Shown here: positions 3 through 12,517 of the stretch, piece after piece
Layout of the letters: every line of letters starts with the position of its first letter
Numbering within the stretch: the stretch's first letter is position 1
Source: Amycolatopsis mongoliensis
Lineage (GTDB): Bacteria; Actinomycetota; Actinomycetes; Mycobacteriales; Pseudonocardiaceae
DNA length: 64,000 bases
Assembly: GCF_030285665.1 (NCBI RefSeq)
Contig: NZ_CP127295.1
Coordinates: 10,416,001-10,480,000 of the forward strand
Reading direction: 5' to 3'
Translations under genes and position numbers: made by a program
Notes under the pieces: model-generated
Databases searched by the model: none
What the model was told of the DNA's origin: nothing
Seen by the model: the letters and a program-made list of their open reading frames with translations, nothing else

Positions 3-383
3 TACGGCGCCGTCGCGATGAACGCCGCGTTGGCTGCCTCGATCACGCAACTGCCGGAGCAGTTGCGGCGGACGATCACGTGGGACCGCGGGAAAGAACT
101 GTCCGGGCACGCACAGCTGACCCTCGAGACCGGGACGAAGGTTTTCTTCGCCGACCCACACTCGCCATGGCAGCGACCGACGAACGAGAACACCAATGGC
201 CTGCTGCGCCAGTACTTCCCGAAGGGCACCGATCTTTCCCGGTGGTCCGCCGAGGAGCTGGAGGCCATCGCCTTCACGATCAATAACCGGCCCCGCAAGA
301 TCCTCAGCTGGCGCACCCCGGCCGAGGTCTTCGCCGAGCAGCTACGCTCACTACAAACACCCGGTGTTGCATCGACCGATTGA
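3..383 (+). pseudogene. IS30-family transposase, C-terminal part (cut by window edge)
   Basis: The frame is open from the window edge and ends at the TGA at 381-383. It encodes the C-terminal half of an IS30-type DDE transposase: a WDRGKELSGH segment with the second catalytic Asp, then the SPWQRPTNENTNGLLRQYFPKG segment carrying the catalytic Glu, then the NNRPRKILSWRTPAEVF tail. These motifs are diagnostic of IS30. The first catalytic Asp and the HTH would lie left of the window, so it cannot be said whether the gene is intact. Immediately downstream a second transposase remnant begins without an obvious IS30 terminal repeat, so the IS30 right end may have been lost. Confidence 0.85.
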
Positions 384-387
384 ACTC

Positions 388-675
388 GCCCAATTCCGGT
401 CGGCTGCCTACCAGCGTCTCCTGCGCAGCCACGGCCTGACCGGGTCGATGGGACGGGTCGGCGCGTGCGGCGACAACGCCGCGATGGAGTCGTTCTTCTC
501 GTTGCTGCAAAAGAACGTTCTCGATACCCGGCGGTGGCGCACGCGGGAGGAGCTTCGGTTGGCGATCGTGTCCTGGATCGAGACGAAGTACCACCGCAAA
601 CGCCGGCAACGGGGGTTGGGCAAGCTCACCCCGGTCGAGTTTGAGACCATCTACACGGCCGCAGCAGCGGCCTGA
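388..675 (+). pseudogene. IS3-family transposase (OrfB) C-terminal remnant
   Basis: About 95 residues of an IS3-type integrase core survive: QFRSAAYQRLL, then GSMGRVGACGDNAAMESFF with the catalytic Glu, then WIETKYHRKRRQRGLGKLTPVEFE at the C-terminus, ending in a TGA at 673-675. The upstream part of the integrase domain is missing because the IS30 sequence abuts it, with the junction near 385-390. After the stop, the segment around 700-715 (tgtcaaccgaagtctgggca) looks like an IS3-type terminal end. This is a dead fragment produced by nested insertion or deletion. Confidence 0.8.
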
Positions 676-3222: not shown

Positions 3223-4056
3223 GTGAACAGTCGCGACACCATGCCGGGGGTGCATTTCCTGCTATTGCTGATCGAGCATGGCGACGCCGCCGCGGTGCGG
3301 CAGCGGCTCGGCATCGGCGTTCCGGAACAGCTCACCGACGAGGGTGCCGCGTGGGAACTCGATCGGTTGGCCGCGCCGCGGTCGGTCCAGCTGTGGATGC
3401 TCGAGCGGGACGATCCCGGCACGAACCGGCTGGTGTTCCACCGGGCCCACGTCGGCGACGCGGTCAAGCGCGACATCCTGCGCGGCCTGCCGTTCGGCGC
3501 CGCCACCGGGCCGCTGCCGGTGCGGGTCGACTGCGGGCAGCCGTACTGCTCGCACGCGGAACCGGACATCCCGGTCAGCCGGCGGGGACTGATCGAGGGG
3601 CTGCGCGAGGCGCGGACGATGGGGGCGGCCCGGACGGCGGCGCGCGCCGTCAGCAAGCCCGACTGGGCCGCGGTCGCCGAGGCGGACCGGGCGGAACCGT
3701 TGCCCGGCTTCGCGCGCTGGGCGCTGGGCGTGCGGATCGACTGCCCACCGGAAGTGCGCGCGCAGTTCGGCTCGCACCCGAAGTTCACGAAGCGGCTGCG
3801 CGATGCGGGCATCGTCGAAGTGCGTGAGTACGTCCTGCTCGGCCGCCCGCCCCGCGACGTACTGGCGGTGCTGCGGCTCGGCACTCGGCTGTTCCCGCAC
3901 CGCGTGGCCGAGGCCGCCGAAGTGCTGGCGCCCCTGGTTCGCGCCGAGCTCGGCGCGAACCCGGACGCGTGGGCGGTGCTCGCGCAGCTGCTGCCGTCCT
4001 TCGCCGGGACGGTGCCCGAGCTGGTGGTCACCAGCGGCGCCGTCGCGCGTCCGTGA
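3223..4056 (+). CDS. Hypothetical protein next to tRNA-like gene, 277 aa
   Basis: Cytosolic protein of unknown family. The start could be the GTG at 3223 (MNSRDTMPG) or the ATG at 3241. A TANNNT-type -10 element (gatact, 3210-3215) lies only about 7 bp before the GTG, so the mRNA may be leaderless. The sequence has an N-terminal helical part, a central RVDCGQPYCSHAEPDIPVSR segment with two Cys and a His, and a C-terminal helical domain (FGSHPKFTKRLRDAGIVEVRE onwards). No membrane segment is visible. Its stop is one base from the 3' end of the convergent tRNA-like gene A, and the VWA/AAA operon starts 100 bp further on, so it may belong to the same system. That link is inference from position. 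Confidence 0.7.
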   Translation: MNSRDTMPGVHFLLLLIEHGDAAAVRQRLGIGVPEQLTDEGAAWELDRLAAPRSVQLWMLERDDPGTNRLVFHRAHVGDAVKRDILRGLPFGAATGPLPVRVDCGQPYCSHAEPDIPVSRRGLIEGLREARTMGAARTAARAVSKPDWAAVAEADRAEPLPGFARWALGVRIDCPPEVRAQFGSHPKFTKRLRDAGIVEVREYVLLGRPPRDVLAVLRLGTRLFPHRVAEAAEVLAPLVRAELGANPDAWAVLAQLLPSFAGTVPELVVTSGAVARP

Positions 4057-4057
4057 G

Positions 4058-4133
4058 CGACGGGCGGCTGGATTCGAACCAGCGTGCCCTTCTTGCTGAG
4101 AAGGTGCGCCTGCCTCTGCGCTACGACCCGTCG
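4058..4133 (-). ncRNA. tRNA-like RNA A, non-canonical cloverleaf
   Basis: Read on the minus strand from 4133 to 4058 it folds as a cloverleaf: acceptor CGACGGG/CCCGTCG (7 bp), one bulged U, 2 further pairs CG/CG, then UA, D-stem GCGC/GCGC with loop AGAGGCAG, one A, anticodon stem CCTTC/GAAGG with loop TCAGCAA, a 4-nt variable region, and T-stem GCTGG/CCAGC with loop TTCGAAT. The elbow elements (GG in the D-loop, TTCGAAT) are normal. What is odd: the extended bulged acceptor, no U at position 33 (C instead; the formal anticodon would be AGC), and no encoded CCA. A -10-like taacat lies just upstream (minus, 4138-4143). It could be a tRNA mimic rather than a decoding tRNA. Confidence 0.7.
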
Positions 4134-4156
4134 GCCCGGATGTTACAGGGGGAAGA

Positions 4157-5542
4157 GTGGGGTTCCGGAAACGGTTGCCGGTCGTCGACCTGACCGACCG
4201 GCGGGCGCTGGCGAGCTGGCGCCCGGCCTCGCCCGCGGTGATCACCGAGGCGGAACGGCTCAAGGAAGCCGCGCTGCTCGACTTCGGGCTCACCGAATCC
4301 GTGGTCGGCTCGTGGCTGTTCAGCCGGTGCCGGCACCAGATCGCCACGACGGCGATCGACACCGCCGCGGTCGTCGCGTCCGGCGACGGCACGTGCCTGC
4401 TCCTGTTCAACCCCGAGTTCTTCGTCGGAATCGGGCTCGACGGCGTCAAGTTCGTGCTGTTCCACGAAGCCCGGCACCTGGTGCACCGGCACCTGTTCGC
4501 CGAGCCGGAGCTTCGGGAGGACCCGGTGTTCACCCTCGCGGCCGAGGTGGTGATCAACCACGTCGCGATCGTACGGCTGGACCGGGGACTTCCCGTGCTG
4601 GCCGGGAAACCGACCGGTATCGACCCCGCGGACATCCACGCGCGCTATGTCGAGGACCTCACCGCGCAAGAGCTGGAGCCCTTGCCTTACAGCGACTTCA
4701 TCGACACGGACCTGACCGTCTACACCGAACTCAAGCGCATGAAGCAGCCACCGGTGCCGGCGCCGTTGTGCGTGCACGTGACCCATCGGCTGCCGGCGGA
4801 CCAGGAGACGGTCGACGCGGCCGTGTCGTCGGCGTTGCTGAACTCGCTGCTGGCGGCCCGTCGCGGCAACGGCGCCGCCGAGGCGGAGCTGCTCGACCTG
4901 ATGGGGCGCACCGAGGACACGGCGAGCCGGATCTGGGGGAACCTCGGCGCGGGCGCGCTGCGGGGCGTGACGGCGCGGACCGGCAAGGTCGACTGGTGGC
5001 AGCGGTGGCTGGTCGACGTGCTCGGCTCGAAGCTGCGTGAAGGTGAGCGGCTGGTGTACCCGAAGAAACGCGGCGCGGTGCTGGCCGTGCTCGGTCACGA
5101 GCCGATGCTGTCGCGGCGCGGGCCGGTCCGGGACAAGGTACTGGTGATCGCGTACGACACGTCCGGGTCGATGCCGCCGAGTGTGGTGGACTGGATGACC
5201 GAGCTGGTCGGCGAAATCGACGGTGTGCAGGCGCACTGGCTGTCGTTCGACGGCGTGGTGATGCCGTTCCGGCCGGGTGAACCGGTGTACGGCGGTGGCG
5301 GCACCAGTTTCCAGGCCGTGGTGGACCACGTCGAAGGACGGTCCCCAGTGGAGGGAAAGTACTTCGAGGAACGCCCCGACGCCATCGTCGTGCTCACCGA
5401 CGGATACGCCCCGCACGTCACACCGACCGAGCCGGACAAGTGGATCTGGCTGATCACCGAAGGCGGCGACGACTGGCCCGACGCGCACATCCCACCCATG
5501 GCCTGCCACCGAGTGCGGCCCGTGACCGGAAGAACCCGATGA
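4157..5542 (+). CDS. DUF2201-type metallopeptidase/VWA-domain protein, 461 aa
   Basis: The GTG at 4157 follows a purine-rich ggggga stretch. Residues 1-290 correspond to a putative metallopeptidase domain (DUF2201 N-terminal type) with the zinc motif HEARH at 103-107 and a further His pair just after it (LVHRH). Residues about 325-455 form a von Willebrand A-like domain with an intact MIDAS: DTSGS at 334-338, GGGGTSF, and VVLTDGY. VWA proteins of this class work with MoxR-like AAA ATPases, and here the ATPase gene follows with an ATGA overlap, so the two are almost certainly co-translated. No signal peptide or membrane helix is seen, so it is expected in the cytosol. The start codon is 24 bp from the 5' end of tRNA-like RNA A, transcribed in the opposite direction, so the two promoters must be interlaced. 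The actual substrate is unknown. Confidence 0.85.
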   Translation: MGFRKRLPVVDLTDRRALASWRPASPAVITEAERLKEAALLDFGLTESVVGSWLFSRCRHQIATTAIDTAAVVASGDGTCLLLFNPEFFVGIGLDGVKFVLFHEARHLVHRHLFAEPELREDPVFTLAAEVVINHVAIVRLDRGLPVLAGKPTGIDPADIHARYVEDLTAQELEPLPYSDFIDTDLTVYTELKRMKQPPVPAPLCVHVTHRLPADQETVDAAVSSALLNSLLAARRGNGAAEAELLDLMGRTEDTASRIWGNLGAGALRGVTARTGKVDWWQRWLVDVLGSKLREGERLVYPKKRGAVLAVLGHEPMLSRRGPVRDKVLVIAYDTSGSMPPSVVDWMTELVGEIDGVQAHWLSFDGVVMPFRPGEPVYGGGGTSFQAVVDHVEGRSPVEGKYFEERPDAIVVLTDGYAPHVTPTEPDKWIWLITEGGDDWPDAHIPPMACHRVRPVTGRTR

Positions 5543-7353
5543 CCGAGACCGTCCGCCGCACCTGGCGACCCAACGCGACCTATCCGACCGCCCCCGAAGG
5601 CGGGTCCCGGCTGGCCGACTTCATCGACGCGATGATCGACATCGGCCAGACCGGACAGGTCTTCGGCACCCACGGCATCGGCAAGACCGCGACGTTCTTC
5701 TCGCACATCGCCGAGGCGTACCCCGGCACCGAGCTGGTGTTCGTGCCCGCCGCCAACCTCACTCCGGACGACCTGCTGATCAACGCCCCGGTGCGGGAGA
5801 ACGGCGAGTTCGTGCTGCGGCAGCTGGTGATGAGCCAGCTGCGGCCGGGCCGGCCGTTCGTGCTGCTGATCGACGACTCGCTGCAGGCGGCGGAGACCGT
5901 CCAGTCGCAGCTCATGCAGATCGCCTGCAACTGGACGCTGGGCGAGTACGACCTGCGCGCGCTCGGCTGTGTCGGTGTGTTCCTGACCGACAACGAGTCG
6001 CTCGCCGAGACTTCGGCGCGGCGCAGCGACCTCGCGATCCTCGACCGCATGGTCACCGTGCGGATGACCGCGAACGACACAGCGTGGCGCACGACGCTCG
6101 CGGCGCACCACCGCGACTGGGACCTGGGTCCGTTCTTCGGAGTGTGGAACTCGCTCGGGCCGGAGCTGCGCGAGTCGCTGTCGCCGCGGACGATGGAGCA
6201 CATCCTGTCCCTCGCCCGTGAGCAGTTCCCGCTGCGCTGGGCGCTTCCGCTGGTCAACGGCGAGCGGCTGCGGCTCGAGGAGACCCTCGGCAAGAAACGC
6301 GTGGACCGCACCGCCGAGATCCTCGGCAGGCTTGCCGACGCGCTCGGCGTGCGCAACCCCGCCACCGTCCCGGATCCGGTCCGGCAGGTGCTGCGGGCCG
6401 CGCTGCGCAACCGCTGGAGCGTGCTGCTGCAGGGGCCGCCCGGCTGCGGCAAGACCGAGCTGGTGCGCGAGACGATCCGGGACGGGCTCGGCCGCGACCC
6501 GCTGTACTTCTCGTTGCCGGTGACCAATGTCGAGGACCTGTGCGCGCCGATCCCGACCGCGGACGGCACGCTGGAGAACCTGATCGCGCGGCCGTTCACC
6601 GGGCGCGAGCCGAAGGCGATCGTGTGGGACGAGTACAACCGCCCGAAGGACAAGGCGTCGTTCGCCCGGCTGATGGAGATCACCCAGGAGTGGTCGCTGG
6701 CCGGACGGCCGATCGAGAACCTCCGCGCCCAGGTGGCGATCCAGAACCCGCCCTACCACCTGGGACGCAAGCTCTTGGTGTCCCGCAACAACATCGCGCA
6801 GGCAACCCGGTTCACCGCGTCGCTGCTGGTCGAGCCGGCCGACATCCCGGCGAACGAGTGGCTGATCCGCAAGTACGGCGGCGTGGCGGAAACCGTCTTG
6901 GAGTGGTGGAAGCACGACATCGACGACGAAGGCCGGGGGTGGATCACCAAGCGGACCATCGAACGGCTCGTCAAGCTGCACGAGCGCGGCCTGCCCCTGG
7001 AGCTGGCGACGATCTACCTCGGCGACGGCGAGTACGCGCCGGTGCCGCTGACCGCGCTGATCGACCGGCTCGCCAACCGGCCGGTGACCGGGCTCACCGA
7101 ACTGGCCCGCCAGGCGGCCCGGTGGGAGGAGCGGCTGCGGTCCGAGTCGGCGTCGGTCGAGGGCGGGAACGGCGGCGACATCGTGCACCAGGTGCTCGCG
7201 AACGCCGAACTGTCCCAGCTGCGCCGGCACCACGACGTCGTCGCGCGGCTGGTCGCGTTGCTGCCGCCCAAACTGCGCGCGACCTACCTGGTCGGGGTGA
7301 ACGAGGACCGGCAGCGGTTCTGGATCGACGTCTTCACGAAGCTGCGTCGCTAG
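5539..7353 (+). CDS. Double AAA ATPase, MoxR/dynein-like, 604 aa
   Basis: The ATG at 5539 overlaps the VWA gene stop (ATGA). There are two P-loop modules. The first has Walker A GTHGIGKT at 43-50 and a Walker B-like FVLLIDD. The second has Walker A GPPGCGKT at 299-306 and Walker B AIVWDEYN near 360, and is of the AAA_5/MoxR type, including a PTADGTLENLI pre-sensor stretch and the QNPPYH sensor-1 segment. MoxR-family ATPases remodel or load a VWA partner in a metal- and ATP-dependent way; here the partner is the upstream gene. A tandem pair of AAA domains is larger than usual for MoxR (about 330 aa). The 3' end overlaps the convergent LRR gene by 20 bp. Confidence 0.85.
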   Translation: MTETVRRTWRPNATYPTAPEGGSRLADFIDAMIDIGQTGQVFGTHGIGKTATFFSHIAEAYPGTELVFVPAANLTPDDLLINAPVRENGEFVLRQLVMSQLRPGRPFVLLIDDSLQAAETVQSQLMQIACNWTLGEYDLRALGCVGVFLTDNESLAETSARRSDLAILDRMVTVRMTANDTAWRTTLAAHHRDWDLGPFFGVWNSLGPELRESLSPRTMEHILSLAREQFPLRWALPLVNGERLRLEETLGKKRVDRTAEILGRLADALGVRNPATVPDPVRQVLRAALRNRWSVLLQGPPGCGKTELVRETIRDGLGRDPLYFSLPVTNVEDLCAPIPTADGTLENLIARPFTGREPKAIVWDEYNRPKDKASFARLMEITQEWSLAGRPIENLRAQVAIQNPPYHLGRKLLVSRNNIAQATRFTASLLVEPADIPANEWLIRKYGGVAETVLEWWKHDIDDEGRGWITKRTIERLVKLHERGLPLELATIYLGDGEYAPVPLTALIDRLANRPVTGLTELARQAARWEERLRSESASVEGGNGGDIVHQVLANAELSQLRRHHDVVARLVALLPPKLRATYLVGVNEDRQRFWIDVFTKLRR

Positions 7354-8449
7354 CCCCGCGGTGCACGCTGCGCACCGCGGCGACGTCGGCCGGTACCGGG
7401 AGCCGCTCGGGGATCGCGGCGCTCGCCAGGTCGAGCCGGCGCCTGATGCCGGTCGCGACGCCCTTGCCGAGCACGAACCGGGTGGGCGTGGCCGCGCGCC
7501 GGGCGCCGTCCAGCAGCCGGTGGGCGGCCTGGCTGCCGAGACCGGTGTTGCTGAGCACCAGGTGCCGCAGCCCATGCGGCCGCTCCGCGAGCGCGGCGGC
7601 GATGGCCGTCGTCGCGGCCTCGTCCAGCCGGTTGTCCGGGGCGTCGAGGACCCTCGCGGCCTTCACGCGCCCGAGATCGCACACTTCGACGCCGGCCCGG
7701 GCCGCCGCGATGACCAGCCTGGCCGTCGCCTTCGGGCCGATTCCGTTGCTGGCCAAGGAGATCCGGCGCAGGCTCCCGGGCTTGAGCGCGTCGGCGACGA
7801 CGTGCGCACCCTCGTCGCCCAGCCGGGCCGCGGACACGTACAGCTCGGTGACCGCATCGGCGGCCAGCAGCGCGGCCAGGTGGGCCGCGCCGGCCGGGCC
7901 GAGCGGGTTGCCCCCGAGGTAGAGCCGCTCGATACGCCGTCCGGCCCCGGCCGCGGTGAGGATCGCCGCCACCAGGCTCGCCACGCCGAGGGCATCGAGG
8001 TCGGTCTGGACCAGGTCGAGCGTGCGCAACGACCGGGCGGACGCCACGATCGCGGCCGCGGCGTCCCCGTCGCCGATCGGGTTGCGCTTGAGCCAGACGC
8101 CGGTGACCTTGCCGGCCTGCGGCGACATCCGCAGGTTGTCGGCGATGCGGCAGACACCGCCCGCGGTGATGCCGTTGCAGCCGAGGTAGAGCGTCTCGAC
8201 CTCGCGCTCGACGGCCTGCCCGGCGACGTCGGCCGCGCCGTCGCCGAGGCCGTCCGTGCCCAGCAGGAGGTGCTTGACCACGCCGGGCCGCAGCGCCTCC
8301 GTCACCCGGGCCGCGTCGTCCGGGCCGAGGGCCGACTTGCACAGGTCGAGCCGGCCGTCGGGCAGGGCGGTGCCGGTCGGGAAGTCCCGGCGTTCGGCGG
8401 TGGCCGTGCCGGTGCGCAGCCACGCCAGGAGGGGTTCGAGTCTGCTCAC
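7334..8449 (-). CDS. Leucine-rich-repeat protein, ribonuclease-inhibitor type, 371 aa
   Basis: Starts at the GTG at 8449, which overlaps the stop of the SDR-like gene (GTGA). Repeats of about 28 residues run through residues 85-320, with cores such as LRTLDLVQTDLDALGVASL, RIERLYLGGNPLGPAGAAHL, LRRISLASNGIGPKATARL and LRHLVLSNTGLGSQAAHRL. The LxxLxLxxN-GIG pattern matches the RNase-inhibitor (RI) class, which makes horseshoe-shaped protein-binding surfaces. There is no signal peptide or enzyme domain. Within the four-gene locus it is the obvious candidate for target or partner recognition; that is inference. Its 3' end overlaps the AAA gene on the other strand by 20 bp. Confidence 0.8.
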   Translation of the reverse strand: MSRLEPLLAWLRTGTATAERRDFPTGTALPDGRLDLCKSALGPDDAARVTEALRPGVVKHLLLGTDGLGDGAADVAGQAVEREVETLYLGCNGITAGGVCRIADNLRMSPQAGKVTGVWLKRNPIGDGDAAAAIVASARSLRTLDLVQTDLDALGVASLVAAILTAAGAGRRIERLYLGGNPLGPAGAAHLAALLAADAVTELYVSAARLGDEGAHVVADALKPGSLRRISLASNGIGPKATARLVIAAARAGVEVCDLGRVKAARVLDAPDNRLDEAATTAIAAALAERPHGLRHLVLSNTGLGSQAAHRLLDGARRAATPTRFVLGKGVATGIRRRLDLASAAIPERLPVPADVAAVRSVHRGASDAAS

Positions 8450-9765
8450 CAGGCCGCCTCCCGGTAGTCCTTGAGGAACACCCCGGCGCTCGGCGCGCCC
8501 CGCTCGCCCCGCACGATCGGGTCGTACACCCGCGCCGCGCCGTCCACGATGTCCAGCGGCGTGCGGAAGCCGTCTCCGGCGAGCCTGGCCTTCTTCGGCA
8601 GCGGGTTCTCGTCGGTGATCCACCCGGTGTCGACCGAGCACATGTAGACGCCGCGCTCGGCGAGTTCGGGACCGCTGGTGCGGGTCAGCATGTTGAGCGC
8701 CGCCTTGGCCATGTTCGTGTGCGGGTGGCCGGAAGTCTTGTTCCGGGCGGCGAACCGGCCCTCGACGGCGGTCACGTTGACGATGTAGCGGCGCGGGTGC
8801 GGTGAGGCCAGCAGCAACGGCAGCAGCCGGTCGCACAGCAGGGTCGGCGCCAGGGCGTTGACCAGCTGTGTCTCCAGCACCTCGGCCGCGTCGAGCTCGC
8901 CGACGCGGACCGACCACGAATTGACCGGCGCGGTGTCCGGCAGCAGGCCCGCTTCGTCGATCTCGGCCAGCGCCAGGGCGCCCCGGCTCGGCTCCAGCGC
9001 AAGCATGGGACTGAACCCCGGCGCAAGCACGGCGTTCGACGGCAGCAGGCCGGTCTCGCCGCCCATCAGCGCCGCATAGGACTCGGGCGGCCGCCGCACG
9101 GTCTGGGCGGCATTGTTGACGAGGATGTCGAGCGGCTTGCCGTCCGCGCGCAGCGACTCGGCCAGGCCGAGCACCTGACGTGGATCCCGCAGGTCGATGC
9201 CGAGCACGGTCAGCCGGTCCAGCCACCGCGCACTGCCCGGCGCCGCCTCGAAGCGGCGCTGGGCGTCACGCGGGAAGCGTGTCGTAACCAGCAGCTCGGC
9301 CCCGTCGCGGAGCAGCATCAGCGCCAGCTGGAAGCCGATCTTCACCCGGCCCCCGGTGAGCAGCGCGCGGCGTCCCGTCAGGTCCGTGCTCGCGCTTCGG
9401 CGTTCGGCGTTCTCCTGGGCGCAGGGCGGGCAGAGCCGGTGGTAGAACGCGTCCGCGAGCCGGTAGTGCTCCTTGCAGACGTAACACCGCCTGCTGCGGG
9501 CCAGCGGGCGGGCCACCGCGTCCGGGTCCGGCCGCAGCGGCGCGTCCTCGCGCCGGGACAGGGCCCCCGTCGCCGTCGCCGCGTCGACCGCCGCGTCCGC
9601 TTGGGCGCGTTCGGCCGAGCGCGCCTTCTTGCGGTGCTGCCGTCCTTCCCGGGCGAACGACTCCGCCACCCGCTCGGCCTTCAACCGCGCCGGATCGTCG
9701 ATCGGCAACGCCCGCAGCCGCGTGACGGTGTCGTGGAACGCCGCCAGCTCGGCCTCGGTGATCAT
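8446..9765 (-). CDS. Zinc-ribbon SDR-like protein with altered active site, 439 aa
   Basis: The ATG at 9765 begins MITEAELAAFHDTV. Residues 1-90 are a helical, charged region. A CxxC-x14-CxxC zinc-binding pair lies at C94, C97, C112 and C115. Residues 128-439 are a Rossmann domain of the short-chain dehydrogenase type: TGGRVKIG (137-144) in the cofactor loop, IDLRD, and NNAA (227-230). The catalytic YxxxK is not present: Lys364 is kept (NMAKAAL) but the Tyr position is Thr360, and the usual catalytic Ser site reads NVTAVEG. It may therefore bind NAD(P) without classical dehydrogenase activity. It is the first gene of the minus operon, 53 bp after tRNA-like RNA B, and is coupled to the LRR gene. 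Confidence 0.8.
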   Translation of the reverse strand: MITEAELAAFHDTVTRLRALPIDDPARLKAERVAESFAREGRQHRKKARSAERAQADAAVDAATATGALSRREDAPLRPDPDAVARPLARSRRCYVCKEHYRLADAFYHRLCPPCAQENAERRSASTDLTGRRALLTGGRVKIGFQLALMLLRDGAELLVTTRFPRDAQRRFEAAPGSARWLDRLTVLGIDLRDPRQVLGLAESLRADGKPLDILVNNAAQTVRRPPESYAALMGGETGLLPSNAVLAPGFSPMLALEPSRGALALAEIDEAGLLPDTAPVNSWSVRVGELDAAEVLETQLVNALAPTLLCDRLLPLLLASPHPRRYIVNVTAVEGRFAARNKTSGHPHTNMAKAALNMLTRTSGPELAERGVYMCSVDTGWITDENPLPKKARLAGDGFRTPLDIVDGAARVYDPIVRGERGAPSAGVFLKDYREAAW

Positions 9766-9817
9766 GCGCTCCCCTCCTGCGGTACCGGCGTCTCCGCCTC
9801 GGGAGAAGGACCGAGCC

Positions 9818-9896
9818 TGCCAGGGCGGCCGGATTCGAACCGGCGTGCACCGGATCCGCAGGCCGGGGCGCCTGCCTCTGCGCTACGACCCTGGCA
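9818..9896 (-). ncRNA. tRNA-like RNA B, non-canonical cloverleaf
   Basis: On minus from 9896 to 9818: acceptor TGCCAGGG/CCCTGGCA (8 bp), a bulged U, 2 more pairs CG/CG, UA, D-stem GCGC/GCGC with loop AGAGGCAG (identical to RNA A), anticodon arm with four CCGG/CCGG pairs closing over a C-U mismatch and loop CTGCGGA (U33 present, formal anticodon GCG), 5-nt variable region, T-stem GCCGG/CCGGC with loop TTCGAAT. Compared with RNA A, the acceptor and T-stem differ by compensatory changes, which supports real base pairing. A tacgat -10-like hexamer lies upstream (minus, 9908-9913). No CCA is encoded. An anticodon GCG is not normal for bacteria, which read CGC with ICG. Confidence 0.7.
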
Positions 9897-9971
9897 TCAC
9901 CGAGATCGTATCCTTCCCGCCGTCGCGGCAGCGACGCACTCATCTGCCGATGTGCGGACGTTCGCTCGTCC

Positions 9972-10102: not shown

Positions 10103-11404
10103 TCATTTCTCCTCCAGGGCCGCCCGCATGCGGGTGAAGTAGACCTGCGTGAGCGGGATGGGCGCGAGCGAGCCCACCACCGCGACGAAGAACAAGGGCC
10201 ACAGCAGGTTCAGCACCATCAGCACGACCCCGGCCGCGATCAGCACGGCGTACCAGCCCGCCATCACGATCACGAACCGGCGGACCTTGCGTTTCACCAA
10301 CGCCGTCTGCTCCGGGTCCTCCGGGACGGGCGCCGCTGTGTTCTTCGCGCCGGTCCGCATGTTCAGCGCGTAGGCCGGGACCGCGTAGGGCGACTTACGC
10401 CACCGTCCGTGCGGGAAAAGGACCACCATGTCGCGGTCGGTGCCGCCGATCCAGGCCTGCCGGTTCGGCTGGTGCTTCATCGGCACCGAACCGTGGGACG
10501 ACGTGGCCGCGCGCAGGGTGATCCGGGTGCCGTCGCGGTAAACGACGTTGATGTCCGGCAGGTGCCGGCCCCGGCGGATCGGGTAGTCCGGCTCGACGGT
10601 CACCGACGCGATCCGCCAGCCGGTGGCGCGGACGGCGCGCGAGCGGCGCCGCCAGTTCATCGCGGCGATGACCGAAAGGACGAGCCCGCTCATCCCGGCG
10701 ATCGTCCCGATCACCTGCGCCCACACCCAGGTCTGGTCGCTGTTGGTCTCGTCCAGCGTGCGCACCCGATCGGGGTCGGCCTTGTCGTAGATGACCGTGA
10801 TCTGCTGCCCCTCGGTGTACTGCCGGCCGGAGTCCCAGACGATGTCGGCGTACCGATAGTGGCCGTAGTCCACCGGATACGCCACGTAAATGGTGTCGTC
10901 GTCCCGGCTGTGCTTGTAGACGCCCAGCACCTCACCGGTTACGCGCGTCCCGGTCTTCAGCAGGTGGTCGGCCGAGGCGCTCATCGCGACGAAACCTGCG
11001 ACCACCCCCGCGAGCACGGCCATCCAGACGAGCACGAGGCCCACGGAGCGCAGCACCAACAGCCGCAACCGGGCGGTCTCGACGTCGAGGTCGACCTGCC
11101 CTGCGCCGTTGCGTTCGGTCAGCGCCGGCAGCCAGTGCTCGTGCTCGGCGACCAGCGCGGCGCGCCGCCGGTCGAGCCACCGCCCGAGGCCGGCGCAGCC
11201 GAGCATCAGTGCAGCGGCCAGGACGAAGACCATGATCTCGCCCGTGAGCTCGCCGTCCTCGAAGACATATCCGGGCGCGGTCAGCGCGTAGACCGTCCCC
11301 GCCGCGTCGCCGAGCGCGGCCAAGCCGAAGACGATCGCTCCGGCCAGAAAGGTGTTCTGCCACCGGCGGTGCGTCGTCGCATCCCGGTCCGTCCCCAGCG
11401 TCAT
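10103..11404 (-). CDS. DUF3592-type membrane protein, 433 aa
   Basis: The ATG at 11404 (MTLGTDRDATTHRRW) is preferred over upstream in-frame starts that add only Arg-rich sequence. It has about six membrane helices: two near residues 15-70, one near 115-140, one near 225-250, and two at the C-terminus near 375-420. Two extracytoplasmic segments resemble the DUF3592 fold (TGEVLGVYKHSRDDDTIYVA, then YPVDYGHYRY, ending VIYDKADPDRVR). The function is unknown; DUF3592 proteins are common in actinomycetes. No operon partner is evident, because both neighbours are non-coding or remnant DNA. Confidence 0.75.
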   Translation of the reverse strand: MTLGTDRDATTHRRWQNTFLAGAIVFGLAALGDAAGTVYALTAPGYVFEDGELTGEIMVFVLAAALMLGCAGLGRWLDRRRAALVAEHEHWLPALTERNGAGQVDLDVETARLRLLVLRSVGLVLVWMAVLAGVVAGFVAMSASADHLLKTGTRVTGEVLGVYKHSRDDDTIYVAYPVDYGHYRYADIVWDSGRQYTEGQQITVIYDKADPDRVRTLDETNSDQTWVWAQVIGTIAGMSGLVLSVIAAMNWRRRSRAVRATGWRIASVTVEPDYPIRRGRHLPDINVVYRDGTRITLRAATSSHGSVPMKHQPNRQAWIGGTDRDMVVLFPHGRWRKSPYAVPAYALNMRTGAKNTAAPVPEDPEQTALVKRKVRRFVIVMAGWYAVLIAAGVVLMVLNLLWPLFFVAVVGSLAPIPLTQVYFTRMRAALEEK

Positions 11405-12413
11405 CGCCTGAGCGTAGACCCGGAAAACACGCCGCGACCTGCGATGAAGCAGACACCGGAAGAAGGCAACCGACCAGGCTCGCCAAGCGTGCAAGCGAGC
11501 AGTGCCCATCGGGTGAGCAGTCCCGGAGTGGAGGAAAGCCAGCGCCGCAAGAACCTTGGCCGCGACCTCGATTGCAGCAGCGGCGCAAAGGCACTCTCAT
11601 AGCCGCGATGAGGACACTTGCCACGGTAGGGTTGACCGGCTGGCATCACCGACGTTCTGACGGCAACGCCGAGGGACACGATGGACACCATGATCGCGGT
11701 AACCACCGGGAAGAAAACGCACCCGAGCGCGCCCCGGCCGCACATCCGAAACCAACCGAGCGCCACGCGCAGCCGCCCTGGACGAGTCACAGGGACAGGC
11801 CCGCGCAGGCCTGCCGGCGACGATCTCTCACCAATAAACGTGGAGCAAACCTCGAGCACAGCCACGCGACCAAACACATCCAACCGCACAGGACCGCGCT
11901 CAACGGCAGCCAACTGCACCACTCGGCCAGCAGGTTCTCCATAACCACAGGTCAGGGCCATGATCGGCCCATACTGGCAGTGAGGGGGTCACCAGCTCTG
12001 TTCTGGCTGGTCAAGGACGTACCCGTCAGTCGCTCACACGAGTTCGTCAGCCGTCATCGCCAGGTCCGACCGACATACTCTGGCACGGGTGTCCCACCTC
12101 GAGCAGCGCAGCGAAGAGCATTCGCCGACAGCAGTCCTGCAACAGAACCCGAGCCTTGGGAAGTCATCGATAACAGTCGCCGACGCCGGCAGCCCGCACA
12201 GAAGCCGTCTCCACACCGGCGACCGGAAGCACGGCAGACCCGCCGTCAGACGCCGGAGTCGCGCCCAGCCATGAGTCAGCGATCGACACGGGGACGACAC
12301 AGTGCTCACCAGCGGCACTACTGCAACCCCGAAGCCGCGCCCGTGCAGCCGGGCAGCCCACCGTTTGGACGATCGTCAAGATAGACACTAAATCGCCCCT
12401 ACTCAGGGGTAGC
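11405..12413. other. About 1 kb without a supportable gene
   Basis: Open frames exist on both strands (for example plus 11572-12384 and minus 11401-11961) but their translations are low-complexity, Arg/His/Gln/Pro-rich and lack recognisable motifs, ribosome binding sites or normal actinobacterial third-position bias. Base composition is less GC-rich than in the flanks, particularly 11580-12060. No inverted repeats, tRNA or ncRNA could be identified with confidence. It ends at the tRNA-Asn terminator. It is best read as decayed or foreign DNA at the edge of the accessory region. Confidence 0.5.
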
Positions 12414-12440: not shown

Positions 12441-12444
12441 CTTG

Positions 12445-12517
12445 CTCCCCCGCTTGGACTCGAACCAAGAACCCTCCGGTTAACAGCCGAATGCTCTGCC
12501 AGTTGAGCTACAGGGGA
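12445..12517 (-). tRNA. tRNA-Asn (GUU)
   Basis: A canonical 73-nt cloverleaf on minus: acceptor TCCCCTG/CGGGGGA with one G-U pair, D-arm AGCTCAACTGGCAGAGC, anticodon loop CTGTTAA with anticodon GTT, T-arm TTGGTTCGAGTCCAA, discriminator G. No CCA is encoded. In Mycobacterium tuberculosis the single asnT gene lies in the same neighbourhood near dnaG, so this is a core gene and marks the edge between the accessory region on its left and the dnaG backbone on its right. Confidence 0.95.

Follow-up and report, generated by a model that had tools for sequence, protein, structure and literature searches.

Ro60, known as Rsr in bacteria, has a von Willebrand factor A (VWA) fold. For YrlA, the RNA of this bacterial system, one account names competitive inhibition of an anticodon nuclease as a possible role (PMC7790460). 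The predicted MoxR-vWA ternary conflict systems couple an AAA+ ATPase to a vWA partner, in rare cases with a metallopeptidase domain, and occur preponderantly in multicellular prokaryotes (PMC7159879). Two further reports describe the Bacillus cereus pseudo-tRNA tRNA-Other, which has a Trp anticodon and an extra-translational role and is poorly aminoacylated (PMC3399842), and phage tRNAs directed against defences that cut tRNA (PMC12409363). Here we analysed a locus in a 64,000-nt stretch of the Amycolatopsis mongoliensis genome (the window). Two tRNA-like RNAs, RNA A and RNA B, both on the minus strand, flank four genes encoding a VWA-metallopeptidase (VWA), a double AAA+ ATPase (AAA), a leucine-rich repeat (LRR) protein and a zinc-ribbon protein resembling short-chain dehydrogenases/reductases (SDR); a fifth gene, X0, abuts RNA A. 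No description of this module, which is found in soil actinobacteria, turned up in the literature searched, which omits most subscription journals.

From the sequences we recognize a family of RNAs linked to SDR and LRR (and VWA-AAA-X0) genes, with −10-like elements of its own, a cloverleaf that covaries and anticodons that have switched repeatedly on a nearly fixed scaffold. We infer, at a probability of about 0.45, that the RNAs and proteins form a bait or decoy system that senses or absorbs tRNA-targeting agents.

Linkage of the RNA family to SDR and LRR genes

A VWA profile was run against contigs from one genome per species, which confirmed 95 relatives; the 80 best loci were kept. RNAs located between X0 and VWA and directed away from VWA were designated class A, and the one to five RNAs located 5' of SDR on the SDR strand were designated class B. 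With SDR orthologues defined by at least 58% identity, 54 of the 55 loci having an orthologue carried a class B RNA no more than 3.5 kb 5' of it. The nearest one lay within 150 nt of the gene in 52 of these loci and within 300 nt in 54, and the presence of RNA was associated with that of SDR over the 80 loci (Fisher p = 1.5e-14). Most SDR-bearing loci also carried a class A RNA, and X0 and LRR were found in 50 and 42 of the 55, respectively. In two Catenulispora loci (L058, L059), the SDR-LRR pair was inverted and the RNA was inverted along with it; the anticodon arm there is non-tRNA-like. The exception among the 55, L072, had no class B RNA 5' of SDR and kept RNA A. In L156 (genome G309), a class B-like RNA lay about 9 kb 5' of SDR. 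RNA was present without SDR in five loci, of which L004, L010, L022 and L024 end at contig ends.

VWA occurred with neither an SDR orthologue nor an RNA in 20 of the 80 loci, four of which had an SDR homologue of 46–55% identity. L049–L052 (Actinomadura/Nonomuraea) carried an SDR homologue (46–55%) between VWA and AAA, and no tRNA-like RNA above threshold was found in these loci. Because VWA-AAA pairs occur without RNA, SDR and LRR are the tightest partners of the RNA. Strict dependence of the RNA on VWA-AAA was rejected on the basis of these 20 loci and of six genomes with SDR and RNA but without VWA (G318, G326, G348, G332, G298 and G208; RNA scores were 65.7 bits in G332 and 66.0 in G298). 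G403 and G254 had RNA and LRR without SDR. A tie of the RNA to all SDRs of this kind was also rejected, since seven solo homologues (phylum sample, stretches of about 4 kb) had no tRNA-like RNA and seven of ten orthologues without an LRR match lacked it; of the remaining three, L140 gave two clear matches, L162 one (56.7 bits) and L160 two weak ones. The tight unit is thus the RNA with SDR and/or LRR, and VWA-AAA-X0 is a frequent addition.

The family model found only two RNAs in the genome of the window, both at the locus. The family RNA was found in none of 35 sampled congeners, which are also without the VWA protein; two further Amycolatopsis species possess the module (L002, L053), and G044, from the same 60-genome sample, gave a borderline match of 66.8 bits. 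Among 394 sampled genomes of the class, VWA was present in six, five of which had the RNA. Matches of at least 70 bits were found in 13 of these genomes, and in 11 at least one match lay beside SDR, LRR or VWA-X0; such a neighbour was missing in G374, in G420 and for one of the two G254 copies. The first look at this sample scored at most 12 candidates per genome, so copies may have been missed, and many single matches of 62–67 bits elsewhere are presumably genuine tRNAs, which makes scores below 70 bits ambiguous in those genomes. A preliminary description of the window had proposed an RNA-plus-protein system, which would be called into question by homologous VWA-AAA-LRR-SDR loci without RNA or by RNAs occurring equally often at unrelated places. 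Neither test spoke against it: 54 of 55 SDR-bearing loci carried a class B RNA, a recurrence that makes the arrangement more than chance, both RNAs of the window's own genome lay at the module, and 11 of the 13 genomes above had at least one beside SDR, LRR or VWA-X0.

Some further family members and homologues were noted. Family RNAs without an SDR or LRR homologue in the fetched stretches, either orphans or remnants, were L153:7990-8064, L157:7027-7103 and L158:7484-7558. In another actinobacterial family, L150:7040-9987 and L154:5174-6919 carried SDR-LRR or LRR followed by an ankyrin-repeat protein (a match in L154; by eye in L150). In L150 a different ATPase-like gene also followed (by eye), which suggests that one ATPase may be able to replace another. 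Homologues of this type of SDR run into the thousands (7971 of 8000 scored); those named among the matches listed came from Deinococcota, Cyanobacteria, Chloroflexota, Planctomycetota, Bacteroidota and Armatimonadota and were annotated as oxidoreductases or dehydrogenases. A search of phages for the RNA returned tRNAs of the phages, and no SDR was found in phages; viral contigs gave one SDR, at a contig end, and a search of plasmids for VWA gave nothing useful.

Fold, ends and anticodons of the RNAs

In the first covariance-model test, intact-form members scored at least 73 bits and the scanned Streptomyces canus tRNAs at most 59. Over all loci there were weaker members (L042, 59.8 bits; L162, 56.7; L148, 48.3), and the partly deleted RNA A of L025 scored 24.9 bits with the family model. 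The list of RNAs used for the association, acceptor, tree and pair counts was built from regular expressions and a few hand-added matches and was checked by eye against the model matches. In an alignment of 150 members (134 distinct) fitted to the structure of the model, 95.1% of cells were paired, compared with 77.5% when partners were shuffled, and 421 double-change cells were counted, compared with 132 after shuffling (0/500 shuffles); related sequences inflate such counts. The cloverleaf fold is thus supported by covariation. In four Catenulisporales/Actinospica members (L057:6656-6740, L058:13324-13408, L059:13154-13238 and L045:16524-16603), a longer, non-tRNA-like arm replaces the anticodon arm. 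A TANN[AC]T element was found 9–22 nt 5' of the RNA in 50 of 51 cases for class A (mean of 1.8 after shuffling) and in 51 of 55 for class B RNAs that come first in an array. Inner RNAs had one in just 6 of 55 cases, which is the pattern that tandem transcription would give. The RNAs are therefore predicted to have −10-like elements of their own.

The acceptor ends departed from those of ordinary tRNAs. The best pairing was 6 bp, a bulge and 2 bp in 48 of 52 class A entries, none of which had a plain 7-bp stem; class B RNAs had the usual 7 bp in 51 and 8 bp in 36 of 110. Both window RNAs were best paired as 6 bp, a bulge and 2 bp, and did not show the plain 7-bp stem with N73 (nucleotide 73) and CCA. 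CCA was encoded in 6 of 164 RNAs, and could be added post-transcriptionally. N73 equalled that of the host tRNA with the same anticodon in 38 of 153 RNAs, N73 depending on the acceptor register picked by the script; RNA A of L053 was entered twice in the acceptor and N73 counts, and was merged or keyed by locus elsewhere. By these counts, the acceptor ends are often non-canonical and mostly independent of the anticodon.

Anticodons were taken from ARAGORN calls with the D- and T-arm motifs of the family, giving 156 RNAs in 81 loci (the 80 loci and the stretch with the window RNA A). Eighteen different anticodons were called, the commonest being Trp CCA, Asp GUC, Glu CUC, Ser GCU, Ala GGC, Gly GCC and Cys GCA, and the anticodon of 149 of the 156 RNAs was present among the fetched S. 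canus tRNAs. RNA A carried a Cys-, Gly- or Ala-type arm in other Pseudonocardiales and mostly a Trp CCA-type arm in Streptomyces; the arm in the window is atypical. Arms identical to a host tRNA arm letter for letter were found in four Asp-, five Glu-, one Trp- and one Ala-type RNA. Outside the anticodon, likeness to the cognate host arm was 9.35/14, compared with 8.03 when labels were shuffled (0/1000), with S. canus as the sole host genome for all species and with related sequences in the set.

In a tree built from 54 SDR proteins, the anticodon changed at least 25 times at the SDR-proximal place of the array (52 rows labelled), 23 times at the distal place (45) and eight times in class A (47); gain or loss of array members may account for part of these counts. 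We then compared 19 close pairs chosen by hand from the SDR tree. The proximal anticodon differed in 12 of the 19, one owing to a missing call (11 of 18 with both called), and the distal anticodon differed in 8 of 15, corresponding to 15 of 54 (27.8%) and 10 of 45 (22.2%) anticodon letters, respectively. D arms differed at 1.2% of sites (proximal) and 4.1% (distal), T arms at 3.4% and 3.5%, proximal acceptor strands at about 11% and the entire proximal anticodon-arm segment at 16.4%; fourfold sites of SDR differed at 22.9%. What is unusual in these comparisons is that the anticodon far outpaces the scaffold yet remains within real anticodons.

Proteins and layout of the locus

The features of the locus are collected below. 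The VWA and AAA genes overlap by 4 nt, as do the LRR and SDR genes, and the VWA-AAA (plus) and SDR-LRR (minus) operons converge, sharing 7349-7353.

Features of the module in the window
Feature	Position	Strand	Basis or remark
X0, 277-aa helical protein	3223..4056	+	in 50/55 SDR-bearing loci
RNA A, tRNA-like	4058..4132	-	ARAGORN, Rfam RF00005, family model R1 77.9 bits
TAACAT, predicted −10-like element of RNA A	4140..4145	-	TANN[AC]T scan
VWA-metallopeptidase (DUF2201_N)	4157..5542	+	Pfam; HEARH and DTSGS invariant
Double AAA+ ATPase (AAA_5)	5539..7353	+	Pfam; two conserved Walker A/B sets
LRR protein, ribonuclease-inhibitor type	7349..8449	-	LRR_6; PDB sequence match 1dfj
Zinc-ribbon SDR-like protein	8446..9765	-	adh_short; 16-row alignment
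RNA B, tRNA-like, loop GCG, immediately 5' of SDR on the same strand	9819..9894	-	ARAGORN, RF00005, R1 76.3 bits
TACGAT, predicted −10-like element of RNA B and, by layout, also of the SDR-LRR operon	9905..9910	-	TANN[AC]T scan

ARAGORN placed RNA A at 4057-4132 and RNA B at 9819-9893, both on the minus strand. With RF00005, RNA B scored 39.2 bits in a scan of the entire window and RNA A 36.3 bits, the latter seen only with a smaller, more permissive scan; both exceed the gathering score of 29, and by score alone would pass as canonical tRNAs. In contrast, the ordinary tRNA-Asn(GTT) at 12444-12517 (-) scored 62.4 bits as a tRNA and 38.1 with the family model.

In the VWA protein, the putative PF13203 metallopeptidase half scored above the Pfam cut-off and the VWA half below it (16.1 vs 26.4 bits), and HEARH and DTSGS were invariant in 17 aligned rows. 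The AAA protein matched AAA_5 at 36 bits (cut-off 22), with both of its Walker A/B sets conserved in 23 rows. By AAA_5, the 4-nt gene overlap and DTSGS, the pair corresponds to a MoxR/dynein-related AAA+ ATPase next to a vWA protein with a metal ion-dependent adhesion site. The LRR protein matched LRR_6 of Pfam, and its best PDB sequence match was ribonuclease inhibitor (1dfj, E 8.4e-14). SDR matched adh_short (E 1.3e-14) and showed, in 16 rows, TGGRxKxG and AAQT motifs, which correspond to a Rossmann/NNAG-like pattern, and a CxxC...CxxC ribbon; the catalytic Tyr of YxxxK was replaced by Thr (HPHTNMAK) in all 16, so the catalytic signature is absent. X0 had no Pfam, NCBIfam or PADLOC match, and its AlphaFold model was all-helical with a mean predicted local distance difference test score of 92.7. 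A PDB sequence search for X0, VWA and AAA gave nothing useful. Among the six proteins scanned, no TROVE domain and no aminoacyl transferase were found with Pfam, and no VMAP or hypervariable effector part with Pfam or PADLOC.

The layout given in the preliminary description proved accurate: ARAGORN ends fell within 1–3 nt of those proposed for two tRNA-like genes, which RF00005 also detected, and the four enclosed genes, in two converging, overlapping operons with X0 touching the left RNA, matched what it had stated. Its protein names were borne out by PF13203, LRR_6, adh_short, the two Walker A/B sets and the CxxC...CxxC ribbon, and for the sub-cut-off VWA half by the invariant DTSGS. Its wider interpretation stood in part. 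The recurring RNA-protein module is real; the proposed kinship with Ro/YrlA was not upheld, as no TROVE domain was found and Rfam gave only tRNA and one weak chance match, in a library whose content of Y RNAs was not checked. The role that it suggested, in defence, quality control or stress sensing, is putative. Beyond that description, the RNAs often occur in arrays, nearly all of their anticodons are real ones and change between relatives, and SDR and LRR are their closest partners.

Near the module, transposase-like open reading frame pieces (insertion sequence remnants, by eye) were seen at the left end of the window (18-675), and the gene at 10103-11509 (-), near RNA B, had a sub-threshold DUF3592 match.

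Interpretation and comparison with known systems

In the proposed bait or decoy system, tRNA-mimic RNAs would present anticodon arms of host type on a body that hardly varies and would serve as baits or decoys for agents that recognize the anticodon arm, such as anticodon nucleases that come from rival bacteria or toxin-antitoxin systems or are set off by phages. A bound or cleaved bait would be registered by the ribonuclease-inhibitor-like LRR protein and the catalytically altered zinc-ribbon SDR, the AAA/VWA-metallopeptidase machine, where present, would supply an ATP-driven response, and anticodon switching would track the tRNAs under attack. The reading rests on the RNA 5' of SDR in 54/55 loci, its co-inversion in Catenulispora, covariation and anticodon switching, together with the real anticodons (149/156), the likeness of the arms to host arms, the N73 mismatch with the host, the ribonuclease-inhibitor-like LRR protein and bare-arm hairpins in Deinococcus. 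More specifically, and more tentatively, the module might be an immune-like system with an exchangeable RNA bait, in which arrays of non-translating mimics copy the cell's own anticodon arms and are swapped to follow attacked tRNAs, their loss or cleavage being read by the LRR protein and the pseudo-SDR and answered by the VWA-metallopeptidase complex.

The Deinococcus hairpins come from a plasmid (L164) that encodes an SDR of the same family (53% identity over 79% of the window SDR). Downstream of it is a broken frame whose start resembles the LRR protein of L154 (57% over 51 residues, E 5e-12). Just 5' of this SDR, L164:8500-8800 contains a tRNA-like gene, another hairpin that resembles a T arm, and two more that are stable (z -2.2 and -2.1). 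The two stable hairpins have Ser GCU- and Trp CCA-type inner loops without an acceptor or T arm; the stretch with the second T arm was not unusually stable (z 0.97). A scan of 16 other loci for anticodon-arm hairpins 5' of SDR gave only three single matches, far from the gene or likely due to chance. This single record, which is not proof, suggests that the displayed thing would be the anticodon arm itself.

Several observations weigh against the bait or decoy reading. No nuclease, target or phenotype has been demonstrated for the module, and PADLOC gave only weak generic matches to the window proteins. RNA A (AGC, C33) and RNA B (GCG) of the window mirror no tRNA of the S. canus set, the best match was the host arm of the RNA's own anticodon in just 28 of 84 distinct arms, and we know of no single nuclease that fits the anticodons found, which are mostly those of Trp, Asp, Glu, Ser, Ala, Gly and Cys. 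The close pairs indicate that anticodon letters evolve at about the fourfold-site rate, not faster, so positive selection is not demonstrated, and the array places compared on the tree may have gained or lost members. The N73 matches (38) exceed the shuffled mean of 25.9 (4/2000 shuffles reach 38). Asp-type RNAs have G73 in 11 of 22, some with the host tRNA-Asp acceptor stem, and Glu-type RNAs have A73 in 11 of 17; with these identity features kept, such RNAs may be charged. Linkage also has its gaps: in L057, which is not at a contig end, the RNA lies beside AAA with no SDR over the next 3.2 kb, and the seven RNA-free SDR orthologues without an LRR match were L139, L144, L145, L147, L159, L161 and L163. 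The tRNA-like gene of L164 could be a normal tRNA (52.4 bits as a tRNA, 44.2 with the family model).

Other explanations were weighed against the same data. The RNAs might anchor or gate a complex for RNA processing or chaperoning, as in Ro/YrlA-like RNA quality control, with the anticodon arm incidental. The co-occurrence of a VWA domain with a tRNA-like RNA, the cooperation of Rsr and Y RNA with PNPase (PMC7790460) and the four Catenulisporales/Actinospica RNAs with a longer arm are consistent with this; we consider it rather unlikely, as TROVE is absent, the RNA is tied to SDR/LRR and not to VWA (20/80 VWA loci without RNA), and an incidental arm should not remain within real anticodons in 149 of 156 RNAs. 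It is unlikely, too, that the RNAs are aminoacyl carriers, charged by host synthetases via the anticodon and passing their amino acid on to a protein or a small molecule off the ribosome. Host-type anticodons and the Asp-type RNAs with G73 and a host acceptor stem would suit carriers, but the N73 excess stems from Asp-, Glu- and some Ala-type RNAs, N73 matching the host in only 1/43 Trp-, 0/16 Ser-, 0/19 Gly- and 2/11 Cys-type RNAs. Moreover, the plain 7-bp acceptor (51/110 class B, 0/52 class A) and CCA (6/164) are often missing, no aminoacyl transferase was found among the scanned proteins, and the anticodon switches while acceptors stay similar.

Regulation in cis was also considered: tRNA-like elements in the SDR 5' leader could control expression via RNase P/Z processing or synthetase binding, and RNA B does follow a −10-like element and precede the start of SDR by a short distance. 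RNA A, directed away from VWA and with its own −10-like element, leads no gene, and arrays of up to five RNAs with differing anticodons are hard to fit to one regulator, which leaves this explanation a small probability. That the loop is a short guide pairing with a target nucleic acid would agree with a variable loop on a nearly constant scaffold; it is very improbable given 18 anticodon calls among 156 RNAs, nearly all real anticodons, and the little specificity offered by 3–7 nt. Finally, tRNA genes often serve as insertion sites, and transposase-like pieces lie at the window's left end, so the RNAs might be tRNA genes of the usual kind on either side of a genomic island, or tRNAs that have decayed where an element inserted. 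We rejected this explanation, whose probability is negligible, on the basis of family specificity (at least 73 bits vs at most 59 for S. canus tRNAs, weaker members notwithstanding), the same place in 54/55 loci, covariation and −10-like elements.

Anticodons are among the most constrained letters of a genome; here they change near the fourfold pace on nearly fixed D and T arms. Tracking of tRNA attack by the bait or decoy system is directly testable through anticodon change. If true, an RNA bait would be added to the known bacterial ways of sensing tRNA damage, and a widespread SDR family, known only as oxidoreductases, and ribonuclease-inhibitor-type LRR proteins would be linked to tRNA biology. 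As a warning, tRNA finders count the RNAs of the module as real tRNAs.

Compared with the known systems, the module resembles the rsr-yrlBA-rtcBA operon of bacterial Ro60 (Rsr)/YrlA in having a VWA-fold protein beside an RNA with a tRNA-like domain. It differs in lacking TROVE, in having several separate RNAs with real, switching anticodons, and in its proteins, which are SDR, LRR, X0 and the metallopeptidase-VWA; the analogy is at most one of function. Like the MoxR-vWA systems, it pairs an AAA+ ATPase with a vWA partner, but the terms searched in the available sections of PMC7159879 show no tRNA-like RNA, short-chain dehydrogenase or LRR partner, and the module has no VMAP-type part among the scanned proteins. 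It shares with tRNA-Other a tRNA-like RNA with a Trp anticodon outside translation, whereas no array or anticodon switching is noted in the excerpts of PMC3399842. As with phage tRNAs, extra tRNA-like molecules may offset an attack on host tRNAs; the phage tRNAs replace lost ones (PMC12409363), whereas the RNAs of the module are often without canonical acceptor ends.

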